Origin: a virus
IMG/VR virus record: IMGVR_UViG_3300025914_000026
Location: 1-38,266 of that record
Strand: one strand, 5' to 3'
Length of the DNA stretch: 38,266 bases
The position numbers and the translations under genes were made by a program. Below the pieces are notes generated by a model that saw nothing but the letters and a program-made list of their open reading frames with translations, did no database searches and was not told the origin of the DNA. Below are positions 3,152 to 16,943 of the stretch, piece by piece (within the stretch, counting starts at the first letter, position 1; every line of letters starts with the position of its first letter).

Positions 3152-3366
3152 CAGAATGGTACATCCGAATCATCAACCACGCAGATTTCGTTGGCGGCTT
3201 GGACGGCTGAGATAAACTCGGCGACATTCTCTCTTGCGATGGATATCGAACGACGACCACCGCCGGAAATGACGACCTTGCTACCTTCCGCAAAAACCTC
3301 AATGTCCGCGTTCGTGTGGTAGCGCCCATTGAAGATGCGCCAGCGAGTTTGTGTTTCGAGGGCCAT
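3151..3366 (-). CDS. small protein with SSB-like C-terminal tip
   Basis: A 71-residue protein directly downstream of ssb, start coupled by TGATG. The body (TRWRIFNGRYHTNADIEVF, then VVISGGGRRSISIARENVAEF) looks like a small beta-rich fold. It ends DDSDVPF, closely matching the ending DDLDDDVPF of the SSB next door and the acidic tip DDDIPF by which bacterial SSBs dock their partner proteins. No OB-fold SSB signature is visible. Function unknown; it may occupy SSB partner pockets. Confidence 0.75.
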   Translation of the reverse strand: MALETQTRWRIFNGRYHTNADIEVFAEGSKVVISGGGRRSISIARENVAEFISAVQAANEICVVDDSDVPF

Positions 3367-6881: not shown

Positions 6882-7276
6882 GCCGACAGTTCCGGACGCT
6901 CGCGAGTGTATTCAAGAAAGCCGGGGCAGACCTGTGGCTTGCCGTTATCGACAGTTTCGTGACAGCCCCACACGACCTTTTCGCCAGCGCTCATTCGCCC
7001 GAGCAAACGAGCCTTCAACATCCATGCCGCTTCTTCTTCGGCTGGCGTCAGATCGTAGCCGCCGAACGGGCATTTCGCGCAACATGACTTCCGCACCTTG
7101 GGCGGCGCGCTGGCCACGACAACCCGCGTCGCCGGAGTGAACAGGGAACGCAGTGCGTCCAATTCATTGCGCGGCTGATCGTTACCCGTCAGGGCCGCGA
7201 CTACAGGCGCGGTCGGCGTAGCCGATAGAGCAGCTTCCGCGTCAGCGGCGCGCCCAACTTCCACATCCTGAACCAT
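6878..7276 (-). CDS. first gene of leftward operon, Cys-rich hypothetical
   Basis: A 132-residue protein and the promoter-proximal gene of the leftward operon. ATG 7276 has a strong ribosome site (GGAGG, 6 bases). The N-terminal half is Ala/Thr/Val-rich and probably flexible. The C-terminal half has a Cys cluster (KSCCAKCPFGGYD) plus two further cysteines, in WGCHETVD and QVCPGFLEY, with spacing suggesting a metal site (zinc or Fe-S). As the immediate-early leftward gene it is in the position of lambda N, but it lacks an obvious Arg-rich RNA-binding motif, so no such role is claimed. Confidence 0.75.
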   Translation of the reverse strand: MVQDVEVGRAADAEAALSATPTAPVVAALTGNDQPRNELDALRSLFTPATRVVVASAPPKVRKSCCAKCPFGGYDLTPAEEEAAWMLKARLLGRMSAGEKVVWGCHETVDNGKPQVCPGFLEYTRERPELSA

Positions 7277-8635: not shown

Positions 8636-9091
8636 TTATGCCCGCGAGGCTGCTTTGGTGGCAGCGGGAGATTGAACGGCTATGCCGGGAGCGGTCGGCT
8701 CGGCCACGCTGTCCGACACTTCGGCATCAGCTCGATAGCGCTCTAACTGTTCATGAAGCACTGGCGCGACGAGCCGAGGAAATTCCGAGAGCGGTACGCC
8801 AGGTGGAAGTCCGAATATTGCCAGGCCAAGCATTTCGGTTAGCGTCGTGATCGGCGGGATGGGATCTGGCGCCGCCATATCGCCAGCGCCCGTCAATAGC
8901 CAATCAAGCGCCACTTTGAACTTGCGGGCGTAGATCGGCGCCTTATCGCGCGGGATGCCGCCCAAATTACGCGTGTCATTCTCGTGTTGGCGATAGGTGT
9001 TGACGCTGATCCCCAACGCCTGCGCGGCCTCATCCTGAGTCTTATAGCCAGCGGCTTCGCGTGCAATGCGGAGTCGTTCGTTTGGTGACAT
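8636..9091 (-). CDS. XRE-family phage repressor (CI-like)
   Basis: A 151-residue protein with an N-terminal helix-turn-helix of XRE type: NERLRIAREAAGYKTQDEAA, QALGISVNTYRQHENDTRN and a following ALDWLLTGAGD, about residues 3-71. The C-terminal part (PITTLTEMLGLAIFGL and onward) is helical and short, with no S24 (LexA/CI) protease domain, so RecA-triggered self-cleavage is not expected. It faces the Cro-like gene across two operators and presumably binds all four AGTGC-N5-GCACT sites to hold lysogeny. ATG 9091 begins the homologous part; upstream frame is shadow. Confidence 0.87.
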   Translation of the reverse strand: MSPNERLRIAREAAGYKTQDEAAQALGISVNTYRQHENDTRNLGGIPRDKAPIYARKFKVALDWLLTGAGDMAAPDPIPPITTLTEMLGLAIFGLPPGVPLSEFPRLVAPVLHEQLERYRADAEVSDSVAEPTAPGIAVQSPAATKAASRA

Positions 9092-9114
9092 GTCGCTCAA
9101 ATAGGCGATATCAC

Positions 9115-9157
9115 AGTGCGAAAGGCACTTGCGCTGTTGGAGTGCATAGTGCACTAT
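9115..9157 (+). promoter_or_regulatory. rightward early promoter with two operators (OR)
   Basis: Two 15-bp dyads, AGTGC-GAAAG-GCACT (9115-9129) and AGTGC-ATAGT-GCACT (9141-9155), have centres 26 bp apart, the same spacing as at the leftward promoter. TTGCGC (9129-9134) and CACTAT (9152-9157) are spaced by 17 bases and read toward the Cro-like gene. The second operator covers the -10, and the first borders the probable repressor promoter on the other strand. Start of transcription is predicted at 9164, the A of the ATG. Confidence 0.75.
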
Positions 9158-9163
9158 CGCCGG

Positions 9164-9361
9164 ATGAGGACGCATGCTGACATCGTTCGCGCCGCCAACC
9201 CAGCGGTTATCGCGGCTCAACGCCGTGTATCTATACATACGGCCAGATCGTGGATTTTGCGCGACAGCATCCCTGCTGAGCATTGGGTGTGGTTCGCCGA
9301 TCGTGATCTCGCATCGCTTGACGAGCTGGCGCGAGCGGCCGCGCAGAAGGCCGCAGCATGA
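9164..9361 (+). CDS. Cro-like helix-turn-helix regulator
   Basis: A 65-residue protein: MRTHADIVRAANPAVIAAQR, then the recognition-helix-like VSIHTARSWILRDSIPAEHW and a short helical tail. This small HTH layout with R.SIPAEHW is typical of Cro/YdaS-type phage regulators. It is the first gene rightward of the operators, divergent from the repressor. ATG 9164 has no ribosome site and lies 6 bases after the predicted -10 hexamer, so it may be translated leaderless. A GTG at 9116 would place the start inside the operators and is less likely. Confidence 0.8.
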   Translation: MRTHADIVRAANPAVIAAQRRVSIHTARSWILRDSIPAEHWVWFADRDLASLDELARAAAQKAAA

Positions 9362-9376
9362 GCGCAGCCGCTGACA

Positions 9377-9643
9377 TCAACTCCCATCGGGAGGCGTCCT
9401 TGGCACGGCTTGAGCGAGCACGGTTCGAACCGACGCCAGCATCCGGGTCGCGTATTCCTGATCATCAGGACCGTCGAGAGTATCAACGAACCGGTCGATT
9501 GATTGCAGGATGCCTTCGACTGCTGCGTTTGACAGCGCGCCTTCTGCTTGGAGGCCGCGCATGACCGCTGACAACACGATCGCATTGAGCGTCCAGAGGT
9601 TGGCGATGCTGCGCGTGATCGCGTCTTGGTCCTCGGGTGACAT
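9377..9643 (-). CDS. opposite-strand small protein in the early region
   Basis: An 88-residue, well-composed frame: MSPEDQDAITRSIANLWTLN, AIVLSAVMRGLQAEGALSNA, then ILQSIDRFVDTLDG and YATRMLASVRTVLAQA. It runs against the surrounding rightward operon and has its own promoter-like sequence, so it may be a separately expressed cargo gene (moron). An overlapping plus-strand frame (9358-9564) is Arg/Leu-rich and judged a shadow. Function unknown. Confidence 0.65.
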   Translation of the reverse strand: MSPEDQDAITRSIANLWTLNAIVLSAVMRGLQAEGALSNAAVEGILQSIDRFVDTLDGPDDQEYATRMLASVRTVLAQAVPRTPPDGS

Positions 9644-9649
9644 TGCTCA

Positions 9650-9678
9650 GGCATCCGGCACCTCGCGCGCTGAGTCAA
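9650..9678 (-). promoter_or_regulatory. promoter of the opposite-strand gene at 9643
   Basis: On the minus strand TTGACT (9678-9673) and GATGCC (9655-9650) are 17 bases apart. Six bases separate the -10 from the ATG at 9643, so the transcript would begin at the start codon. The -35 is a 5/6 match to the consensus; the -10 is poor. Confidence 0.4.
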
Positions 9679-9717
9679 TCGCATGACCCCCAATCCTCAA
9701 CATGACGGAGAAGCCTG

Positions 9718-9903
9718 ATGGCTGACAACATCGACTTTTGGGCGATGCTCATCGGCATCTGCGCGACCGGGATCGTGTCCGGCGGGATCTACGGCCTGAT
9801 CGAGCTTTCCGATGCCCGCCAGCACGCGCGCTACCGCCGTGCTCAGCAGGACAGGGTCAAGGCTAGGGGCTTCATCGATCATTACGGGAGCGCCTCTAAA
9901 TGA
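9718..9903 (+). CDS. small membrane protein (61 aa)
   Basis: One transmembrane helix near the N-terminus (FWAMLIGICATGIVSGGIYG), then a basic cytoplasmic-type tail (RQHARYRRAQQDRVKARG). The ribosome site GGAG lies 7 bases before ATG 9718. The stop overlaps the next ATG (ATGA). Unknown function in the rightward early operon. Confidence 0.75.
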   Translation: MADNIDFWAMLIGICATGIVSGGIYGLIELSDARQHARYRRAQQDRVKARGFIDHYGSASK

Positions 9904-10361
9904 CGCAGCGCAACATTGCCGAGCGGGAAAAGCCAATCTTTTCCGCTTCGACCGTTTTGGACGCTTTGGCGGAATCGCTCTCAGCCATCCGCCGCGACGA
10001 CAAGCTGACCTTCGCCGACATGGCCGCTGTCCTCGGCAAGAGCGAGGATCAGGCCGGCAAGTACGCAAGCGGGCAGCAGGAAATGGGCGTGATCGCCTTT
10101 GCCCGCGCCAAGCGGGAATGGAATGGCCGCTTCACCGGGGCATTCGACCGTCTGTGCGTCGACAGCCGCCCTGCCACCATCGGTACAGACCGCGCCAAGG
10201 GCTCGGCAGTCCTGAAAGCCGCGCTCGCGCTGTCTGTCGCCCTTGAGGACGATGACGCGATCGACAGCAACGAGGTGCGCGCCAATCGCGGCACGCTGGA
10301 GAATGCGCGAGATGCGATCGAGGCGCTGCTGACTAAGCTCCAGCCCAGGGAAGTCGCATGA
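9900..10361 (+). CDS. helix-turn-helix-like early protein
   Basis: A 153-residue protein with a possible XRE-like helix-turn-helix: LTFADMAAVLGKSEDQAGKY followed by ASGQQEMGVIAFARAKREW. The later part is helical and acidic (ALALSVALEDDDAIDSNEVR). It holds the position of lambda cII, after cro and before replication genes, so it could be a regulator of the lysis-lysogeny choice. That role rests on position and a weak motif only. Confidence 0.7.
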   Translation: MTQRNIAEREKPIFSASTVLDALAESLSAIRRDDKLTFADMAAVLGKSEDQAGKYASGQQEMGVIAFARAKREWNGRFTGAFDRLCVDSRPATIGTDRAKGSAVLKAALALSVALEDDDAIDSNEVRANRGTLENARDAIEALLTKLQPREVA

Positions 10362-11095
10362 GCCGCGTAGAGGTCATCGGCAACGCCACGCTGTATCTAG
10401 GCAACGCGCTGGACGTGTTGCCGACAATTGGTCGTGTCGATCACTTCATCAGCGACCCGCCCTACGAGGCTTCACTTCACGCTGCCAAGGCGAATGTCAC
10501 GGCGCTGCGCATGGACTCCGGACCCGAACTTAAGGCTGTTAACTTCGACGCAATCGACGATATCCGCGAGCCCATCGTGGATCTCTTTGCCGCCAATTGC
10601 GACGGCTGGGTGATTGTGTTCTGCACCGTTGAGGGCGTCGCCAGATGGGCGGATGCGTTCAACCCGTCGTCGCTCAAGTACAAGCGCGCCTGCGTATGGG
10701 TGAAGCCCGACAGCACACCACAGCTTAACGGCCAGGGCCCTGCTCAGGGTGCAGAGTGCTTCGTGGTGTGTTGGGGCGGATCTGGCCACGCTAAGTGGAA
10801 CGCTGGCGGCAAGCGCGGGATCTACACGCACCTTGTCAATAATCCGGAGCGCACTGGTCTGCACCCGACCGAAAAGCCCCGCCGGTTAATGAGCGAGATA
10901 ATCGCCGACTTCACCAATCCAGGCGAGCTTATCTGTGACCCCTTCATGGGGTCTGGAACGACTGGAGTCGCCGCCGTCATGGCAGGACGCCGGTTCGTCG
11001 GGATCGAGCTTAACGAGACGTATTTCGACCTATCCTGCAAGCGTCTTGAGGATGCTCAACGCCAAGGCTCGCTGTTTCAGGAGCAAGCGGCATGA
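10358..11095 (+). CDS. DNA adenine N6-methyltransferase (beta class)
   Basis: A 245-residue methyltransferase. The catalytic motif DPPY (residues 33-36) precedes the S-adenosylmethionine-binding motif DPFMGSGTTG (194-203), an order typical of beta-class enzymes; DPPY suggests methylation of adenine at N6. Other landmarks are GWVIVFCTVEGV, CVWVKPDSTPQL and HPTEKPRRLM. No restriction enzyme is next to it, so it is an orphan enzyme, probably protecting phage DNA from host restriction or altering host methylation. The target sequence cannot be read from the gene. Coupled by ATGA to both neighbours. Confidence 0.92.
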   Translation: MSRVEVIGNATLYLGNALDVLPTIGRVDHFISDPPYEASLHAAKANVTALRMDSGPELKAVNFDAIDDIREPIVDLFAANCDGWVIVFCTVEGVARWADAFNPSSLKYKRACVWVKPDSTPQLNGQGPAQGAECFVVCWGGSGHAKWNAGGKRGIYTHLVNNPERTGLHPTEKPRRLMSEIIADFTNPGELICDPFMGSGTTGVAAVMAGRRFVGIELNETYFDLSCKRLEDAQRQGSLFQEQAA

Positions 11096-11238
11096 TCTCC
11101 CATCTCATAGCCTCCTATCGCCAACGCAAAGCCATGAAGCGCTTGGACGAGTTGGTTCAGCAAACCCTCTCAAGCTACGAGCATCGCCAATACCTGGAGC
11201 GCCGCGCCGCTGCCTTGAAGGGGAGGGCGCGGGCATGA
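11092..11238 (+). CDS. small basic helical protein (48 aa)
   Basis: ATGA-coupled at both ends. The product (MISHLIASYRQRKAMKRLDE, then LVQQTLSSYEHRQYLERRAA) is one long basic helix by appearance. No family recognised. Confidence 0.6.
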   Translation: MISHLIASYRQRKAMKRLDELVQQTLSSYEHRQYLERRAAALKGRARA

Positions 11239-11402
11239 AGGTCTACGCTGACATCCCGAAGCGGTGTGTTGCGGCACCGGCTATCATTCGCATCGTCGGC
11301 AAGGCGATGACAGTCGAATGCCTGCGACCCGTTGCGGTCAACACCAAGCATCCCAGCTTGTCCGTCTGGAACTCGAAGGCAACCATGTGGGGGCAGGGGT
11401 GA
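11235..11402 (+). CDS. small hypothetical protein (55 aa)
   Basis: Begins at ATG 11235, coupled to the upstream stop. Sequence features are MKVYADIPKRCVAAPAIIRI and the C-terminal NTKHPSLSVWNSKATMWGQG. Its stop overlaps the GTG start of the resolvase gene. The frame stays open upstream, but that is a shadow of the methyltransferase gene. Function unknown. Confidence 0.65.
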   Translation: MKVYADIPKRCVAAPAIIRIVGKAMTVECLRPVAVNTKHPSLSVWNSKATMWGQG

Positions 11403-11758
11403 TCAAGGTAACACTCCCATGGCCTGACAAGGTCCTGTGGCCCAACGGGCGCACGCGATCATTCCACAAGCGCGCTCGCCTGATCGCATTGCACCGCCAA
11501 TGGGGCAAGATAGCAGCGCTGGGGGCAGGGGCCAGGAACATCGCGCATGGCGACGAGCGCATTCCGGTGCATTTCCTTGTTCACCCCATGCCGCGCGGCC
11601 CTGCGCCCGACCGCGACGCCTGCATCTCGGCTTGCAAGAGCTACCTAGACGGCATCGCGGACGCGCTGGGCGTCAATGATAGCCTGTTCGATCCACAACC
11701 ACCGGTGATCGGTGAGAGGGGCGGTACCATCACGATTACGGTCGGGGAGGCGGCGTAA
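11399..11758 (+). CDS. rusA: RusA-like Holliday junction resolvase
   Basis: A 119-residue protein. It starts at GTG 11399 (GTGA overlap, GGGGGCAGGG just upstream) with VIKVTLPWPDKVLWPNGRTR, then SFHKRARLIALHRQW. The acidic core resembles RusA: PDRDACISACKSYLDGIADA followed by LGVNDSLFDPQPPVIGERGG. RusA enzymes are dimeric nucleases that resolve four-way junctions formed in phage recombination. Consistent with the ERF/SSB recombination set on the left arm. Confidence 0.85.
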   Translation: MIKVTLPWPDKVLWPNGRTRSFHKRARLIALHRQWGKIAALGAGARNIAHGDERIPVHFLVHPMPRGPAPDRDACISACKSYLDGIADALGVNDSLFDPQPPVIGERGGTITITVGEAA

Positions 11759-11781
11759 TGCGCGCATCCACCGTCATGCGA

Positions 11782-11830
11782 TTATCCACAACCAGCATTT
11801 TCAGACACTTATCGTGTTTTATGTGGATAA
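11782..11830. other. candidate replication origin: paired DnaA boxes
   Basis: Two perfect DnaA boxes, TTATCCACA (11782-11790) and its inverse TGTGGATAA (11822-11830), face each other 31 bases apart in the 130-base gap between the resolvase and the next replication gene. The sequence between them is relatively A/T-rich and contains a short dyad ACAC-TTATC-GTGT. With the DnaB helicase gene 250 bases downstream, a phage origin or a DnaA-controlled site is plausible. Confidence 0.5.
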
Positions 11831-11891
11831 GCGTTTTCTCGGCGGCTTGCTCCATTGCTTTACCGCAGTTGCAGGGAGCATAGAATCGTCG

Positions 11892-12089
11892 ATGGGCGCT
11901 ATCCTCCCTTTCGCGAGCAAGCAGACGACTGACGAAACCGCAGTCGAAGCCGCTTGGCGCGAGCTACAGACGCTCGTCAAACAGCGCATGGATGATCCGG
12001 GTCTGTTGGCCAATTTGGATCACTGCATGGCGACAGCGCGCGCCCTCCAAAAATTCGAGAACCTTTTCTTGGCGGAGGATGCCGCGTGA
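11892..12089 (+). CDS. small protein preceding the helicase gene (65 aa)
   Basis: Start at ATG 11892 (AGGGAG 14 bases upstream, rather far). The product is helical: TTDETAVEAAWRELQTLVKQ and then MDDPGLLANLDHCMATARAL, ending FENLFLAEDAA. The stop overlaps the helicase GTG start (GTGA). It may be a replication accessory protein by position; no family recognised. Confidence 0.65.
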   Translation: MGAILPFASKQTTDETAVEAAWRELQTLVKQRMDDPGLLANLDHCMATARALQKFENLFLAEDAA

Positions 12090-13471
12090 ATGCATACAGC
12101 GTCACCCCAAGGCCAGTGGCCAACGTCGATGGCGAACACGCTTTAGTCGCCGCGCTGCTGTTCGATGGCAGCCGGACGGATATTGCTGCTGATCGCGTAT
12201 CGCCCGCCGACTTCACCGACCCGCTCTACTCTGCCATGTACGGTTTGATCGTTCGTGAAGCAGCGCGCGGCGCACCGTTAAACGCGCTCACCATTAAGCC
12301 GTATCTGGACGACTTGCCCGACTTCAAAGAGGCTGGCGGCATGTCGTTCTTGGCTCGTATGAACCAGGGTGCGGCTGGCCTTATCGATCTGGCTGCGACC
12401 GCCAAGCAAATCCACCAACTTTCCCAACGGCGCATGCTCATCGAGAACATGCGCGCCGTGATCAACGATGCTGCCGATAGCGAGATCCAATTGGCTACGG
12501 TCGTGGAGTCCGCTGAAGCCGGCATATTCAACGCCACCGTTACCGATGAGGGTTTGCATCAACCTACAGCGGCCGAGTGTCTGGATGAATTGCTCGCGTC
12601 GTTTGATGAGCCGATTGGCGGCGTCAAGTGCCATGCCATCCCTTCCATTGATCGGCTGATCGGTCCGCTCAAGCCCAAGCAGCTCATCATTGGCGCCGGC
12701 CGCCCCGGAATGGGAAAGACGGCTACAGCGCTCAGCTATGCGATCGGCGCGGCAAAGGCTGGGCATGGCGTCCTGTTTGTCAGCCTGGAGATGGGCAGCA
12801 CGGAATTAGCAGCCCGCATGGCTGCTGATCTATGCTTTGACGGTCACCGTGGCATTCCGTTCGAGAGCATCCGCGACAACACGCTGACTGCGGCTCAGCG
12901 CGAGCAGATCGCCAGCATCCGCTCCGACATACACCATCTCCCCCTTCAGATCATCGACACTGGCAAGCTATCGATCGGCCGGCTGTCGATGATCATCCGC
13001 CGGTACAAGCGCCGCTTTGAGGCGCGTGGCTTGAAGCTGGAAATGGTGATCATCGATTATCTCCAGTTGCTCCAGACGGACAACCCCAAGCGATCGAATT
13101 ATGAAGCGATCAGCGAAATCAGCATGGCGCTAAAGGCCATCGCGAAAGAGCAGGGGCTCACCGTTTTCGCGCTGGCCCAATTGAGCCGAGAGGCTGAAAA
13201 ACGACCCGACAAGCGGCCTCAGCTTTCCGACCTCAGAGACAGCGGCCAGATCGAACAGGACGCAGATGCCGTGCTGTTCCTCTATCGCCACGAATATTAT
13301 CTGAAGCAGGCTCCTGAGGCTGATCCCGCGCACGAGAAACACGACGTTTGGCAGGTCGCCATGCGCAAGTGCGAGGGCATGATTGACTTCATCTGCGCCA
13401 AGCGTCGCAATGGCCGCACGGGCAGCGCGACGGGCGTGTTCTGGGCCGGTAATCAGGCTGTCCGAGGATGA
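12086..13471 (+). CDS. dnaB: DnaB-type replicative helicase
   Basis: A 461-residue hexameric replicative helicase. The N-terminal DnaB domain (about 10-150) begins EHALVAALLFDGS. The RecA-like motor carries Walker A GRPGMGKT (205-212), the SLEM motif (FVSLEMGSTELAARM), Walker B VIIDYLQLL (321-329) and the late motif SDLRDSGQIEQDADAVLFLY. It unwinds phage DNA at the fork. The upstream DnaA boxes and downstream DUF1376 protein form a replication module. GTG start at 12086. Confidence 0.96.
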   Translation: MNAYSVTPRPVANVDGEHALVAALLFDGSRTDIAADRVSPADFTDPLYSAMYGLIVREAARGAPLNALTIKPYLDDLPDFKEAGGMSFLARMNQGAAGLIDLAATAKQIHQLSQRRMLIENMRAVINDAADSEIQLATVVESAEAGIFNATVTDEGLHQPTAAECLDELLASFDEPIGGVKCHAIPSIDRLIGPLKPKQLIIGAGRPGMGKTATALSYAIGAAKAGHGVLFVSLEMGSTELAARMAADLCFDGHRGIPFESIRDNTLTAAQREQIASIRSDIHHLPLQIIDTGKLSIGRLSMIIRRYKRRFEARGLKLEMVIIDYLQLLQTDNPKRSNYEAISEISMALKAIAKEQGLTVFALAQLSREAEKRPDKRPQLSDLRDSGQIEQDADAVLFLYRHEYYLKQAPEADPAHEKHDVWQVAMRKCEGMIDFICAKRRNGRTGSATGVFWAGNQAVRG

Positions 13472-14148
13472 AGGGGGCGGCACTCCCTATATTCGGCGAC
13501 GCCTATCTGGCGGACACGCATCACCTCACGCTTGAGGAACACGGGGCATATTTCAAGCTGCTCTTGCTCGCGTGGCGTTCGCCGGGGTGCTCGCTGCCCG
13601 ACGACGATCAGCGGCTTGCCCGCATGTTGGCGATCGGGCCGGCCAAATGGGCGAAACTGAAGCCCTGCGTGATGGCGTTCTGGACCTTGGCTGATGGAGC
13701 ATGGACGCAGAAGCGCTTGAGCAAGGAAAGGGCTTGGACCGATAAAAAGGCTGCCAGTAATTCTTCGTCGGCCAAGAAGCGTTGGGGAAAGCAAGATATT
13801 GAAAAACCACGAAACGAGGAATGCGAACGCATAAGCGAACGCAATGCCCCTCCACCTCCATTATCCATACCTAACGGTATGGGCGTCCCGCCCGTCGACA
13901 CTGTGAAAGCCATTTGGGATATTGGCATCACGCTCTTGACCGCTTCGGGACACGAAGAACGCGCCGCCCGCTCCATCGTGGGCCGCTGGCGTAAAGAGCA
14001 TGGGGATGGGAAAACGCTCGCAGCCCTCATCGACTGCCAAGCAAAATCCATCACTAGCCCAGTCGAGTGGATGGCGAAGGTTCTCAGCGCCTCGTCATCG
14101 GCTCCCAGCCTGCTTGAACAGGCTCATCGCTACGAGAGGGCCGCATGA
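13468..14148 (+). CDS. DUF1376 replication protein
   Basis: A 226-residue protein with the DUF1376 (YdaU-like) N-terminus: LPIFGDAYLADTHHLTLEEH, GAYFKLLLLAWRSPGCSLPD and then VMAFWTLADGAWTQKRLSKE. A Lys/Arg/Pro-rich linker leads to a C-terminal helical domain (KAIWDIGITLLTASGHEERA). Members lie beside phage helicase genes and are thought to act as initiator or helicase-loader proteins. ATGA overlap with the helicase gene. Confidence 0.85.
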   Translation: MKGAALPIFGDAYLADTHHLTLEEHGAYFKLLLLAWRSPGCSLPDDDQRLARMLAIGPAKWAKLKPCVMAFWTLADGAWTQKRLSKERAWTDKKAASNSSSAKKRWGKQDIEKPRNEECERISERNAPPPPLSIPNGMGVPPVDTVKAIWDIGITLLTASGHEERAARSIVGRWRKEHGDGKTLAALIDCQAKSITSPVEWMAKVLSASSSAPSLLEQAHRYERAA

Positions 14149-14185
14149 CCCATCCCTACACCCTGGCATATCGAGAGGAAGAACG

Positions 14186-14365
14186 GTGAGCGAGTTTCGC
14201 ATTTTCTCCATTTGGTTCGCGATCGGCGCGTCTGCCTTCACGATTATCATTTGGATCGCCACGCCCAACTCGCCGTTGTCGTTTGATGGATTGATGCGGG
14301 CTTATGCCTACGCCGCGAATATTGGGTTTCTCGCGGTCGCTGTGCTCGGACGGAAGCCGTCATGA
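14186..14365 (+). CDS. small membrane protein, two helices (59 aa)
   Basis: The GTG at 14186 follows GAGAGGAAG and overlaps the stop of a 14-codon frame (14145-14189). Two hydrophobic helices: FSIWFAIGASAFTIIIWIA and AYAANIGFLAVAVLG. Function unknown; early-region membrane proteins of this size may act in exclusion or as regulators of host membrane state. Confidence 0.7.
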   Translation: MSEFRIFSIWFAIGASAFTIIIWIATPNSPLSFDGLMRAYAYAANIGFLAVAVLGRKPS

Positions 14366-14391
14366 CCCAAACGGACAAGAGGATCTAAACG

Positions 14392-14484
14392 ATGGGCTGG
14401 ATTCTCATTGGCGTGATTGCGTTGCTGGCGATCACTGGCACCCGCGTGATCGCGGACAAATTCAATTCTGGCGGAAGGTATTAG
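14392..14484 (+). CDS. tiny membrane peptide (30 aa)
   Basis: ATG 14392 has AGAGGA 8 bases upstream. The product starts MGWILIGVIALLAITGTRVI and ends DKFNSGGRY: one transmembrane helix and a short polar tail. The stop lies 5 bases before the NusG-like gene. Function unknown. Confidence 0.6.
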   Translation: MGWILIGVIALLAITGTRVIADKFNSGGRY

Positions 14485-14489
14485 GGCAC

Positions 14490-15065
14490 ATGGCTAAGGG
14501 GCGGGGAGCGACGGACGGTTGGTGTATCCTTCGCACGCGGGGAGGAAGTACACTCAAGCTGGCATCATCACTTGCTGACAGTGGCGTGGAAGCCTGGACC
14601 CCGACAGCGACGATCACGAAGCGCAAGGGAAGGGCGCGAGATCGTGTTGACGCACCCATGCCGATCCTGCCAACGTTCGTGTTCGTCAAGTCGGTCTATG
14701 TTTCCGAGCTACAGCGCATCTGCGCGCTAGTCATGAGCCCGCATCCGGCCTTTTCGATATTCCGTTACCTGAACCGTATTCCCGTGCTGTCTGATCGCGA
14801 TATCTCCAGTCTGAAGGACGCGGAGGATAGAGCGACCATGGATCACCGAAAGCAACAGCGGAAGGTCGTCCCGATCGGCACGCATGTTCGTCTAGACGAT
14901 GGCGCATTCGCCGGACTTCCTGGAGTTGTCGAGCAAAGCGACGGAAAATCCGCGATCGTCGCATTCGGCAGCAACTTCAGGGTTGAAATTGCCACTTGGC
15001 TTTTGCCACAAGATTTGCTAGAGGCGAGCGTGTCTAATTCGGACACTGCCGCTCAAGCGGCTTAG
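14490..15065 (+). CDS. NusG/RfaH-like transcription factor
   Basis: A 191-residue protein with the two NusG domains. The NGN part (about 10-100) runs GWCILRTRGGSTLKLASSLA, DSGVEAWTPTATITKRKG and PMPILPTFVFVKSVY; the C-terminal KOW part (127-172) runs VPIGTHVRLDDGAFAGLPGV, VEQSDGKSAIVAFG and VEIATWLLPQ. NusG-like factors bind RNA polymerase and suppress pausing and termination. As the last early gene before a hairpin-rich gap and the late operon, it is placed like lambda Q, so it is probably the late-gene antiterminator. The long open frame upstream of 14490 is a shadow. Confidence 0.85.
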   Translation: MAKGRGATDGWCILRTRGGSTLKLASSLADSGVEAWTPTATITKRKGRARDRVDAPMPILPTFVFVKSVYVSELQRICALVMSPHPAFSIFRYLNRIPVLSDRDISSLKDAEDRATMDHRKQQRKVVPIGTHVRLDDGAFAGLPGVVEQSDGKSAIVAFGSNFRVEIATWLLPQDLLEASVSNSDTAAQAA

Positions 15066-15118
15066 ACTGCGCGATGGCTTAGCCACCCTGTCGCACCCGC
15101 TAATAGCGGGGAAGCGAC
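15048..15118 (+). promoter_or_regulatory. cluster of three hairpins before the late operon
   Basis: GCCGC-TCAA-GCGGC (15048-15061) covers the end of the NusG-like gene. TGGCT-T-AGCCA is at 15075-15085. A long stem (15090-15118) has CCCGCT-AAT-AGCGGG inside GTCGC/GCGAC. None is followed by a T run, so they are not standard terminators. Position suggests a pause or leader structure for late-gene antitermination. The rest of the gap to 15307 shows no clear gene or promoter to me; a cos or pac site could also lie here. Confidence 0.5.
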
Positions 15119-15267
15119 GCAATTCTTTCAACACATTCGGCGTAGGTCGCCCCCTTTCGACTGATCGCCGATCCCGCCGCCAATCATTCCGACGCAAGCA
15201 TTAGAACCATCGTGGTCAATCGCGGTCGGCACTGTTTGAGCGGCGGGTAACATTCACGGCTGTTGGG

Positions 15268-15303
15268 AGGAGGTGATCCTTTCCTCGCGCGCCGGAAGCG
15301 AGG
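15268..15303 (+). promoter_or_regulatory. 12-base anti-16S match plus hairpin before terminase gene
   Basis: AGGAGGTGATCC (15268-15279) is fully complementary to the usual 16S rRNA 3' end, much longer than a normal ribosome site, yet no start codon lies at normal spacing. A hairpin, CCTCGC/GCGAGG (15283-15303), lies between it and ATG 15308. Folding would shorten the distance and hide part of the local GAGGG site. It may control translation of the late operon. Confidence 0.5.
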
Positions 15304-15307
15304 GCTT

Positions 15308-15637
15308 ATGGCCGATACGGCTCTAGTAGCAAAACGTAGCAATCGCGGAAGCAAGCCAGGCGAGCGGCGCGGAGGCCGACAGAAGGGCGTACCGAACAAG
15401 GCCACAGCGTCGATCAAGGAAGCGGCAAGAGAGTACACAGAGAAGGCGCTAGGAACCTTTGTCGCGTGTATTGACGACGCTCAATCGCCTTGGGCCGCAA
15501 AGGTCGCCGCAGCATCAGCCATTCTCGACAGAGGTTATGGCAAGCCAAGCACGGTCATAAGCGGCGATGAGGATGGCGGCCCGGTCGCGCTCGTCTCCAC
15601 TATCGAGTTGATCGGCGTTCGCCCCGGTGAAGGTTAA
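15308..15637 (+). CDS. terminase small subunit-like protein
   Basis: A 109-residue basic protein: GSKPGERRGGRQKGVPNKAT, then IKEAAREYTEKALGTFVACI, AAKVAAASAILDRGYGKPST and a short tail. The GGRQKGVPNK.T start and ILDRGYGKP motif are common in short phage packaging proteins next to large terminases. It should recognise phage DNA for packaging. ATG 15308 chosen (GAGGG upstream); the frame also opens at a TTG at 15263. Confidence 0.75.
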   Translation: MADTALVAKRSNRGSKPGERRGGRQKGVPNKATASIKEAAREYTEKALGTFVACIDDAQSPWAAKVAAASAILDRGYGKPSTVISGDEDGGPVALVSTIELIGVRPGEG

Positions 15638-16943
15638 GATAAAGATACCGGACAAGCTGGTTCCGGTTTTCGAGGGAAAAGCTGATACGCGCGGGGCGTT
15701 TGGCGGCAGAGGTTCGGCAAAGACCCGCACGTTCGCGAAGATGACTGCGGTTCGGGCCCATATGTGGGATCGCATGGGCCGAACCGGGATAATCCTGTGC
15801 GGTCGCCAGTTCATGAATAGCCTAGAGGATAGCTCGCTTGAGGAAATCAAGGAGGCGATCCGAGAAGAGCCTTGGCTGTCTAGCCATTTCGATATTGGCG
15901 AAAAGTACATCCGGACTAAATCAGGCAGGATTCATTATTCGTTCGTCGGGCTTGAGCGCAACATCAACAGCCTGAAGTCCAAGGCGAGAATTTTGCTTGG
16001 ATGGATCGATGAGGCCGAACCCGTCCCCGAGGATTCATGGATCAAACTGATTCCGACGCTTCGAGAAGAAGACAGCGAGCTTTGGATCACGTGGAACCCC
16101 GAGCGAGAGAAGTCAGCGACAAATAAGCGGTTCCGCAATAGCGACGATCCGCTGACAAAAATCGTGGAGATGAATTACCGCGATAACCCGTGGTTTCCCG
16201 CCATTCTTGAGCGCAAACGCCAGAAGGACAAGAGCGAGCGTCCGCACCTCTACGGTCATATCTGGGAGGGCGAATACATGACCCTCATGGAAGGTGCGTA
16301 TTTCGCCGAGCATCTGATCGATGCGCAGGACAGCGGACGCATCGGGTTCGTTCCAGAAGATCCGCATCTGGTCATCAGGCTGTTCGCGGACATCGGCGGA
16401 ACGGGAGCTAAGGCCGACAATTTCGTGTTCTGGGCGGCGCAGTGGGTCGGGCTCGAAATACGCTGGGTCAATCATTACGAGCAGCAGGGCCAGCCGATCG
16501 CAACGCATCTCAACTGGCTGCGCACTCAAGGTTACACGCCCGACAAGACAGTGATCTACCTGCCGCATGACGGCGACACGAACGACCGTGTGTTCGACGT
16601 CAGCTATCGGACGGCATTCGAAGGCGCGGGCTATACCGTTCACGTTATCCCCAATCAGGGGAAGGGTGCGGCAATGAACCGTGTCGAGCGAGCCCGAGAG
16701 CTGTTCCCGCGTATGCGGTTCGACGAGACGAAGTGCGATCCGGGCCTCAAGGCGCTCGGTTGGTATCACGAAAAGAAGGACGAGAAGCGGGACATCGGGC
16801 TCGGCCCTGAGCACGATTGGGCAAGTCATAGCGCGGATGCATTTGGCGCGGGCTGTGTTGCCTATGAGGAACCCCGTCCCGTCATCGCGTCTCCAACGCC
16901 CCCGCAGATAAACGCAGGATCACAGGGATGGATGGCCGCATGA
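15627..16943 (+). CDS. terminase large subunit
   Basis: A 438-residue packaging motor. The ATPase has Walker A GGRGSAKT (26-33) and Walker B ILLGWIDEAE (Asp127-Glu128), followed by the coupling-type segment ELWITWNPE. The C-terminal nuclease domain includes LFADIGGTGAKADNFVFW with its metal-binding Asp. It resembles PBSX/Terminase_3-type enzymes. It cuts phage concatemers and drives DNA into the prohead through the portal. GTG 15627 overlaps the end of the small-subunit gene by 11 bases. Confidence 0.95.
   Translation: MKVKIKIPDKLVPVFEGKADTRGAFGGRGSAKTRTFAKMTAVRAHMWDRMGRTGIILCGRQFMNSLEDSSLEEIKEAIREEPWLSSHFDIGEKYIRTKSGRIHYSFVGLERNINSLKSKARILLGWIDEAEPVPEDSWIKLIPTLREEDSELWITWNPEREKSATNKRFRNSDDPLTKIVEMNYRDNPWFPAILERKRQKDKSERPHLYGHIWEGEYMTLMEGAYFAEHLIDAQDSGRIGFVPEDPHLVIRLFADIGGTGAKADNFVFWAAQWVGLEIRWVNHYEQQGQPIATHLNWLRTQGYTPDKTVIYLPHDGDTNDRVFDVSYRTAFEGAGYTVHVIPNQGKGAAMNRVERARELFPRMRFDETKCDPGLKALGWYHEKKDEKRDIGLGPEHDWASHSADAFGAGCVAYEEPRPVIASPTPPQINAGSQGWMAA

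Follow-up and report, generated by a model that had tools for sequence, protein, structure and literature searches.

How temperate phages that carry their own DnaB helicase and no recognisable initiator choose the place and time at which copying starts is, to our knowledge, poorly understood. The locus considered here raises this question, as two exact DnaA boxes face each other in front of the helicase operon of such a phage. The window, that is, the whole stretch of DNA analysed, is a complete virus record of 38,266 bases (IMGVR_UViG_3300025914_000026), in which terminase, P22-like portal, ERF, NinB, RusA-like, DnaB and DUF1376 proteins were recognised; L and G numbers below are our own handles for loci and genomes.

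The box pair, its operon and the host

The replication block contains the following features, in window coordinates:

11264..11758, plus strand: RusA-like resolvase gene, upstream, weak match (phrog_34, E 5e-7)
11758..11883, plus strand: short open frame of 41 codons that spans the gap, with a possible role in translational coupling; its peptide is not conserved
11782..11790, plus strand: DnaA box 1, exact TTATCCACA; also perfect in L410, one mismatch in L237
11791..11821, no strand: AT-rich spacer of 31 bases; L237 and L410 have one of the same length, L412 has none
11822..11830, minus strand: DnaA box 2, exact TTATCCACA on the minus strand (TGTGGATAA as read); perfect in L410, one mismatch in L237
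11859..11886, plus strand: promoter-like TTTACC-16-TAGAAT, starting 28 bases past box 2; the ATG of the 65-aa gene follows 6 bases later
11892..12089, plus strand: 65-aa gene before the helicase, its protein predicted to be a helical hairpin; many family loci have a relative
12086..13471, plus strand: DnaB-like replicative helicase (PF03796, 8.2e-66; PF00772, 3.7e-12)
13468..14148, plus strand: DUF1376 protein, PHROG "primosomal protein" (PF07120, 6.3e-16; phrog_9327)

The inverted pair with its 31-base separation, reported in the preliminary description, was confirmed at 11782-11830, and these two are the only exact DnaA boxes of the whole record, where six one-mismatch boxes are scattered elsewhere. 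Both match TTWTNCACA, the DnaA-box consensus printed in a passage of PMC5835720. The earlier view that two exact 9-mers this close are unlikely by chance also holds: dinucleotide-shuffled windows contained a mean of 0.12 exact boxes, at least two occurred in 14 of 2,000 shuffles, and two within 60 bases, in any orientation, in none of the 2,000. The 60-mer that starts at 11780 has a GC content of 36.7%, within the lowest 0.1% of the window; L412, a relative described below, is without the spacer.

The gap that holds the boxes (11759-11891, 133 bases) had been taken for the only sizeable one of the replication block, wrongly, as 155 bases separate the end of the DUF1376 gene (14148) from the next recognised gene, which starts at 14304. 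The strand skew of the window has its GC-skew minimum at 13,333 and its T-A extreme at 7,048. An iteron origin of the lambda type was set aside, since no iterons were found in the replication block and, with the settings of the tool used, 9300-15700 contains seven two-copy repeat families and none with more than two copies. The 65-aa protein, with a pLDDT of 87 for its predicted helical hairpin, gave no PHROG or convincing Pfam match and no PDB match at E <= 0.001; it is possibly a partner of the helicase.

The first 116 bases of the window, made of 41 bases followed by a tRNA-Val at 42-116, match the host-family genome G203 at 98% and are probably bacterial, and 138-1367 gave a weak integrase match, scoring 24.5 bits where the cut-off is 27.1. 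From this bacterial-like tRNA-Val end and the weak integrase, the record is most likely an integrated prophage with its left end within the tRNA-Val; no copy of at least 12 bases of the 116-base stretch was found at the right end. The host is likely a Sphingomonas-like bacterium, of the family of the Sphingomonas bacterium genome (L297, G044). G203, the nearest host genome, contains 10 exact boxes in 4.6 Mb, against 20 for the backwards control, and no cluster of them, so the preference of the host DnaA for the exact box is deduced from domain IV of DnaA in two other host-family genomes, which keeps the GGRDHTT motif. Inverted exact pairs with a gap of 16-46 bases were found in 9 of 249 host-family genomes (backwards control, 0 of 249), none with a 31-base gap.

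Conservation of the boxes in close relatives

Conservation in related phages, which had been proposed as a check, was found in the closest relatives and in a minority of the loci of the wider family, treated in the next section. The perfect pair recurs, with the same 31-base gap, in the L410 phage (helicase about 41% identical), which adds a third perfect box, and all three exact sites of the L410 record fall in this element. When the window is aligned with L410, none of the 18 box columns differs, against 10 of 35 other columns; with L237 the corresponding counts are 2 of 18 and 9 of 35. In L237 the third box is perfect, in addition to the two that carry one mismatch each. L412, a sister of L410, has lost most of the spacer and keeps three boxes, TTATCCCCA, TTATCCACA and TTTTCCACA, all in one orientation, which are the only sites with at most one mismatch in its 20,815-base record. 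The boxes are thus conserved as DNA, whereas the spacer and the flanks change.

The window and L237 also have 47 identical bases in common at the start of the 65-aa gene, and part of their likeness is therefore recent exchange. On the left of the element, the RusA-like gene of the window (11700-11758) is unrelated in sequence to L410:3800-3835, which by eye belongs to an L222-like nuclease; a recombination joint therefore lies just left of the boxes.

These same variants bear on the explanation that the element acts as a stem in RNA or as a translated leader, the box match being incidental. The stem of the window folds better than its shuffles (z -3.28), with 1 of 200 shuffles equalling it, and a short open frame ends at the same TAG in all four variants, with length differences that preserve the frame. 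However, L237 folds another stem and L412 is without the arms; the window and L237 differ in the frame in which the spacer core is read, and the boxes too lie in different frames. We therefore consider this explanation very improbable. Two of its specific forms were rejected: the RNA stem, as L237 has another fold, L412 does not have the arms and Rfam, which returned only a tRNA, has no match at the box site; and a conserved short peptide across the gap, as frames and residues differ between variants. The short open frame may nevertheless serve translational coupling.

The spacer is also the place to consider a titration site, or a datA/DARS-like site that would shift the host DnaA pool or its nucleotide state in favour of the phage. 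Two facing boxes with AT-rich DNA between them would suit this, datA requiring, according to a passage of PMC5835720, boxes with an IHF site between them. Scored against the IHF consensus, the spacers of L237 and L410 each hold a one-mismatch IHF-like site (25 and 26 of 500 shuffles as good, respectively), whereas the best site of the window has two mismatches and is equalled in 285 of 500 shuffles. L412 is without such a spacer, and two boxes per copy would offer little for titration. On balance we regard a titration or datA-like role as improbable.

Boxes and DnaA domain IV genes across the helicase family

Relatives of the helicase were collected from viral contigs (the best 80 rows), from phage records and from prophage-like loci in 5 of the 249 host-family genomes. 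Of 50 scanned loci 38 were used, after removal of near-copies (L006, L230, L236, L239) and of L252-L258 and L260, with helicases of 32-35% identity; upstream of the helicase, the removed loci held no boxes beyond those of the copies, except for a one-mismatch site at -603 in L253. Counting from about helicase residue 11, 12 boxes with at most one mismatch lie at -450..-150 in 7 of the 38 loci, a post hoc count since this region was picked after an initial scan of the loci. For the same region, shuffles gave 0.87 (maximum 4 in 300) and permuted motifs 0.96 (maximum 7 in 300); outside it, the 38 loci contained 0.028 boxes per 300 bases. One of the 12 boxes (L221) is inside a coding gene; without the phage of the window itself (L003), 10 boxes in 6 of 37 loci remain.

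With L410, L412 and five prophage loci added, 45 loci could be compared, and 17 boxes were found at -340..-263 before the helicase in eight of them (L003, L237, L410, L412, L005, Pam1, L220 and L222), which we count as six lineages because L237, L410 and L412 share one helicase type. The other 37 have no box at -340..-263, so the replication module can work without boxes; L430 has none with at most one mismatch on either strand of 4,353 bases. Among 41 whole family records there are six exact boxes, four of them at the element (the two of the window, one in L237 and one in its near-copy L239). Of the remaining two, L231 has one, 785 bases ahead of its helicase, and the other is at another place in the L227 record. 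Family members differ in the number, orientation and spacing of their boxes. In the prophage-like locus L426, which has no gap before the helicase, TGAGGATAA and TGTGGATAA were observed 12 bases apart at 3257-3277, inside the DUF1376 gene and near A-rich stretches.

Could the boxes of the window be two functionless 9-mers that arose by chance or were neutrally inherited? The 47 identical bases and the recent exchange with L237 are in keeping with this, as is the absence of boxes from most family loci. Against it stand the 0 of 2,000 shuffles, the sparing of the box columns from change, the keeping of boxes in L412 and the boxes found at the same place in Pam1, L005 and L220 despite different flanks; we consider chance or neutral inheritance extremely improbable.

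The idea that viral contigs in general have inverted box pairs near such helicases was rejected: a family helicase lay within 3 kb of none of the 99 non-redundant places among the matches listed, from which the window's own kind was absent. Loci with a single box had such a helicase in 3 of 80 cases, two of which were the window's own phage. The inverted geometry with a 31-base gap occurs in 12 viral stretches, three of which belong to this helicase family (L163, L197, L437), while the other nine showed no such helicase in the DNA examined. Since the inverted pairs listed from other viral contigs have no such helicase nearby, the finding is restricted to this DnaB family. Searches with the DNA of 11740-12090 returned two short weak matches each in phage and plasmid records, none relevant.

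Some family members encode a piece of DnaA themselves. Bac_DnaA_C (PF08299) scored above its cut-off in 7 of 41 family records, two of which are near-copies (L235, L236), and in 9 of 41 at E <= 0.01. In L221, L222, L224, L251 and L218, a gene that consists of domain IV or has it as its last part precedes the helicase by 0.3-1.1 kb, and three of these genes (94-112 aa, PF08299, no other domain found) are located as follows:

L221:4403-4738: DnaA domain IV gene
L222:3940-4224: DnaA domain IV gene
L251:4026-4364: DnaA domain IV gene

The L221 and L222 proteins match solved DnaA domain IV chains and keep GRDHTT, which L251 is without. No PF08299 match was found in the records, some of them fragments, of the window, L237, L410, L412, L005, L220 and Pam1. 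The two forms do not strictly exclude each other, since L222 combines a domain IV gene with a one-mismatch box. The phage domain IV could be an origin-recognition protein or a competitor of host DnaA. We suggest, as a tentative idea with the balance against it, that DnaA-box recognition is an exchangeable part, some modules recruiting host DnaA via boxes in front of their DnaB operon and others encoding their own domain IV nearby, which would recognise such boxes and recruit the phage DnaB independently of the ATP-controlled DnaA of the host.

Origin or operon control, and known systems

The preliminary description had suggested either an origin that recruits host DnaA or DnaA control of the helicase operon. 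The tie between the boxes and the helicase module stands, by their position, by their conservation amid changing surroundings and by the domain IV genes of related modules; between the two functions, which are not separated, the evidence leans towards an origin.

If DnaA controlled only a promoter, it would activate or repress the operon formed by the 65-aa gene, the helicase and DUF1376, and the origin would be elsewhere. A promoter-like site does lie between the boxes and the operon, TAGAAT and its distance to the ATG are kept in L237, L410 and L412, and host DnaA of lambda acts on transcription at the origin region, as stated in passages of PMC3985674 and PMC7466680. The distance of 6 bases between TAGAAT and the ATG also makes a leaderless transcript possible. 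The match is nevertheless weak alone, because 3 such sites were found in 9000-14200 against 1.7 expected in shuffles. Moreover, L412, L005, Pam1 and the window differ in how many boxes they have, in how these are oriented and in how far they lie from the gene start, and in one case, L426, an exact and a one-mismatch box are inside the DUF1376 gene and not before the operon. Promoter control by itself is a possible but rather unlikely explanation.

The facing boxes are most likely a binding site for host DnaA, putative as read from sequence, and replication of the phage is probably started or timed by this protein. We favour, at slightly better than even confidence, the reading that host DnaA at the boxes would help to start replication with the phage DnaB, the element being an origin or an origin plus promoter. 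The boxes, the only exact ones of the record, occupy a fixed place before the helicase operon, and a cluster of boxes beside replication genes is kept in relatives (two here, three in L410 and L412). In the proposed mechanism, host DnaA would bind the boxes at the AT-rich stretch and open or mark the place where the phage, after excision or infection, starts to replicate; bound DnaA would help to load the DnaB that the phage encodes, probably assisted by the DUF1376 protein, and firing would thereby be tied to active host DnaA. Transcription may also start at TTTACC-16-TAGAAT and, with this site 28 bases past box 2, origin and DnaA-responsive promoter may be one element.

Among the matches listed in open-licence PMC literature, no title concerned DnaA boxes before a phage DnaB operon. 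The conserved two-box site is a target of less than 100 bases that lends itself to mutation, and the relatives in which DnaA domain IV is free-standing provide natural variants for comparing initiation under host control with initiation under phage control.

DARS sites consist of a few strong DnaA boxes close together. E. coli datA, as described in part of PMC5835720, resembles the window in the same respect. The window differs from both by having no convincing IHF site and by the placement of its boxes in a phage replication operon. Closer at hand is the Pam1 phage (ON014753), of the same helicase family (50.5% identity), which has GTATCCACA and TTATCCACG in the gap before its helicase operon; these boxes, however, are in one orientation with one mismatch each, and a nuclease gene replaces RusA upstream. 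Origins of plasmids and plasmid-prophages, for example P1 oriR, have a small number of strong DnaA boxes next to a replication gene where the replicon starts. The P1 oriR type carries a Rep protein and iterons, whereas none were recognised in the window, which looks like an integrated prophage. Lambda differs by its iterons bound by the O protein and its use of host DnaB, the phage of the window having no iterons that we found and its own DnaB. The likeness to lambda pR, pO and ori is that of host DnaA near a phage replication module, bound in lambda near promoters and the origin (passages of PMC3985674 and PMC7466680) and putative here. In the same passages lambda combines transcription acted on by DnaA with origin function, and the promoter-like site of the window suggests a similar combination.
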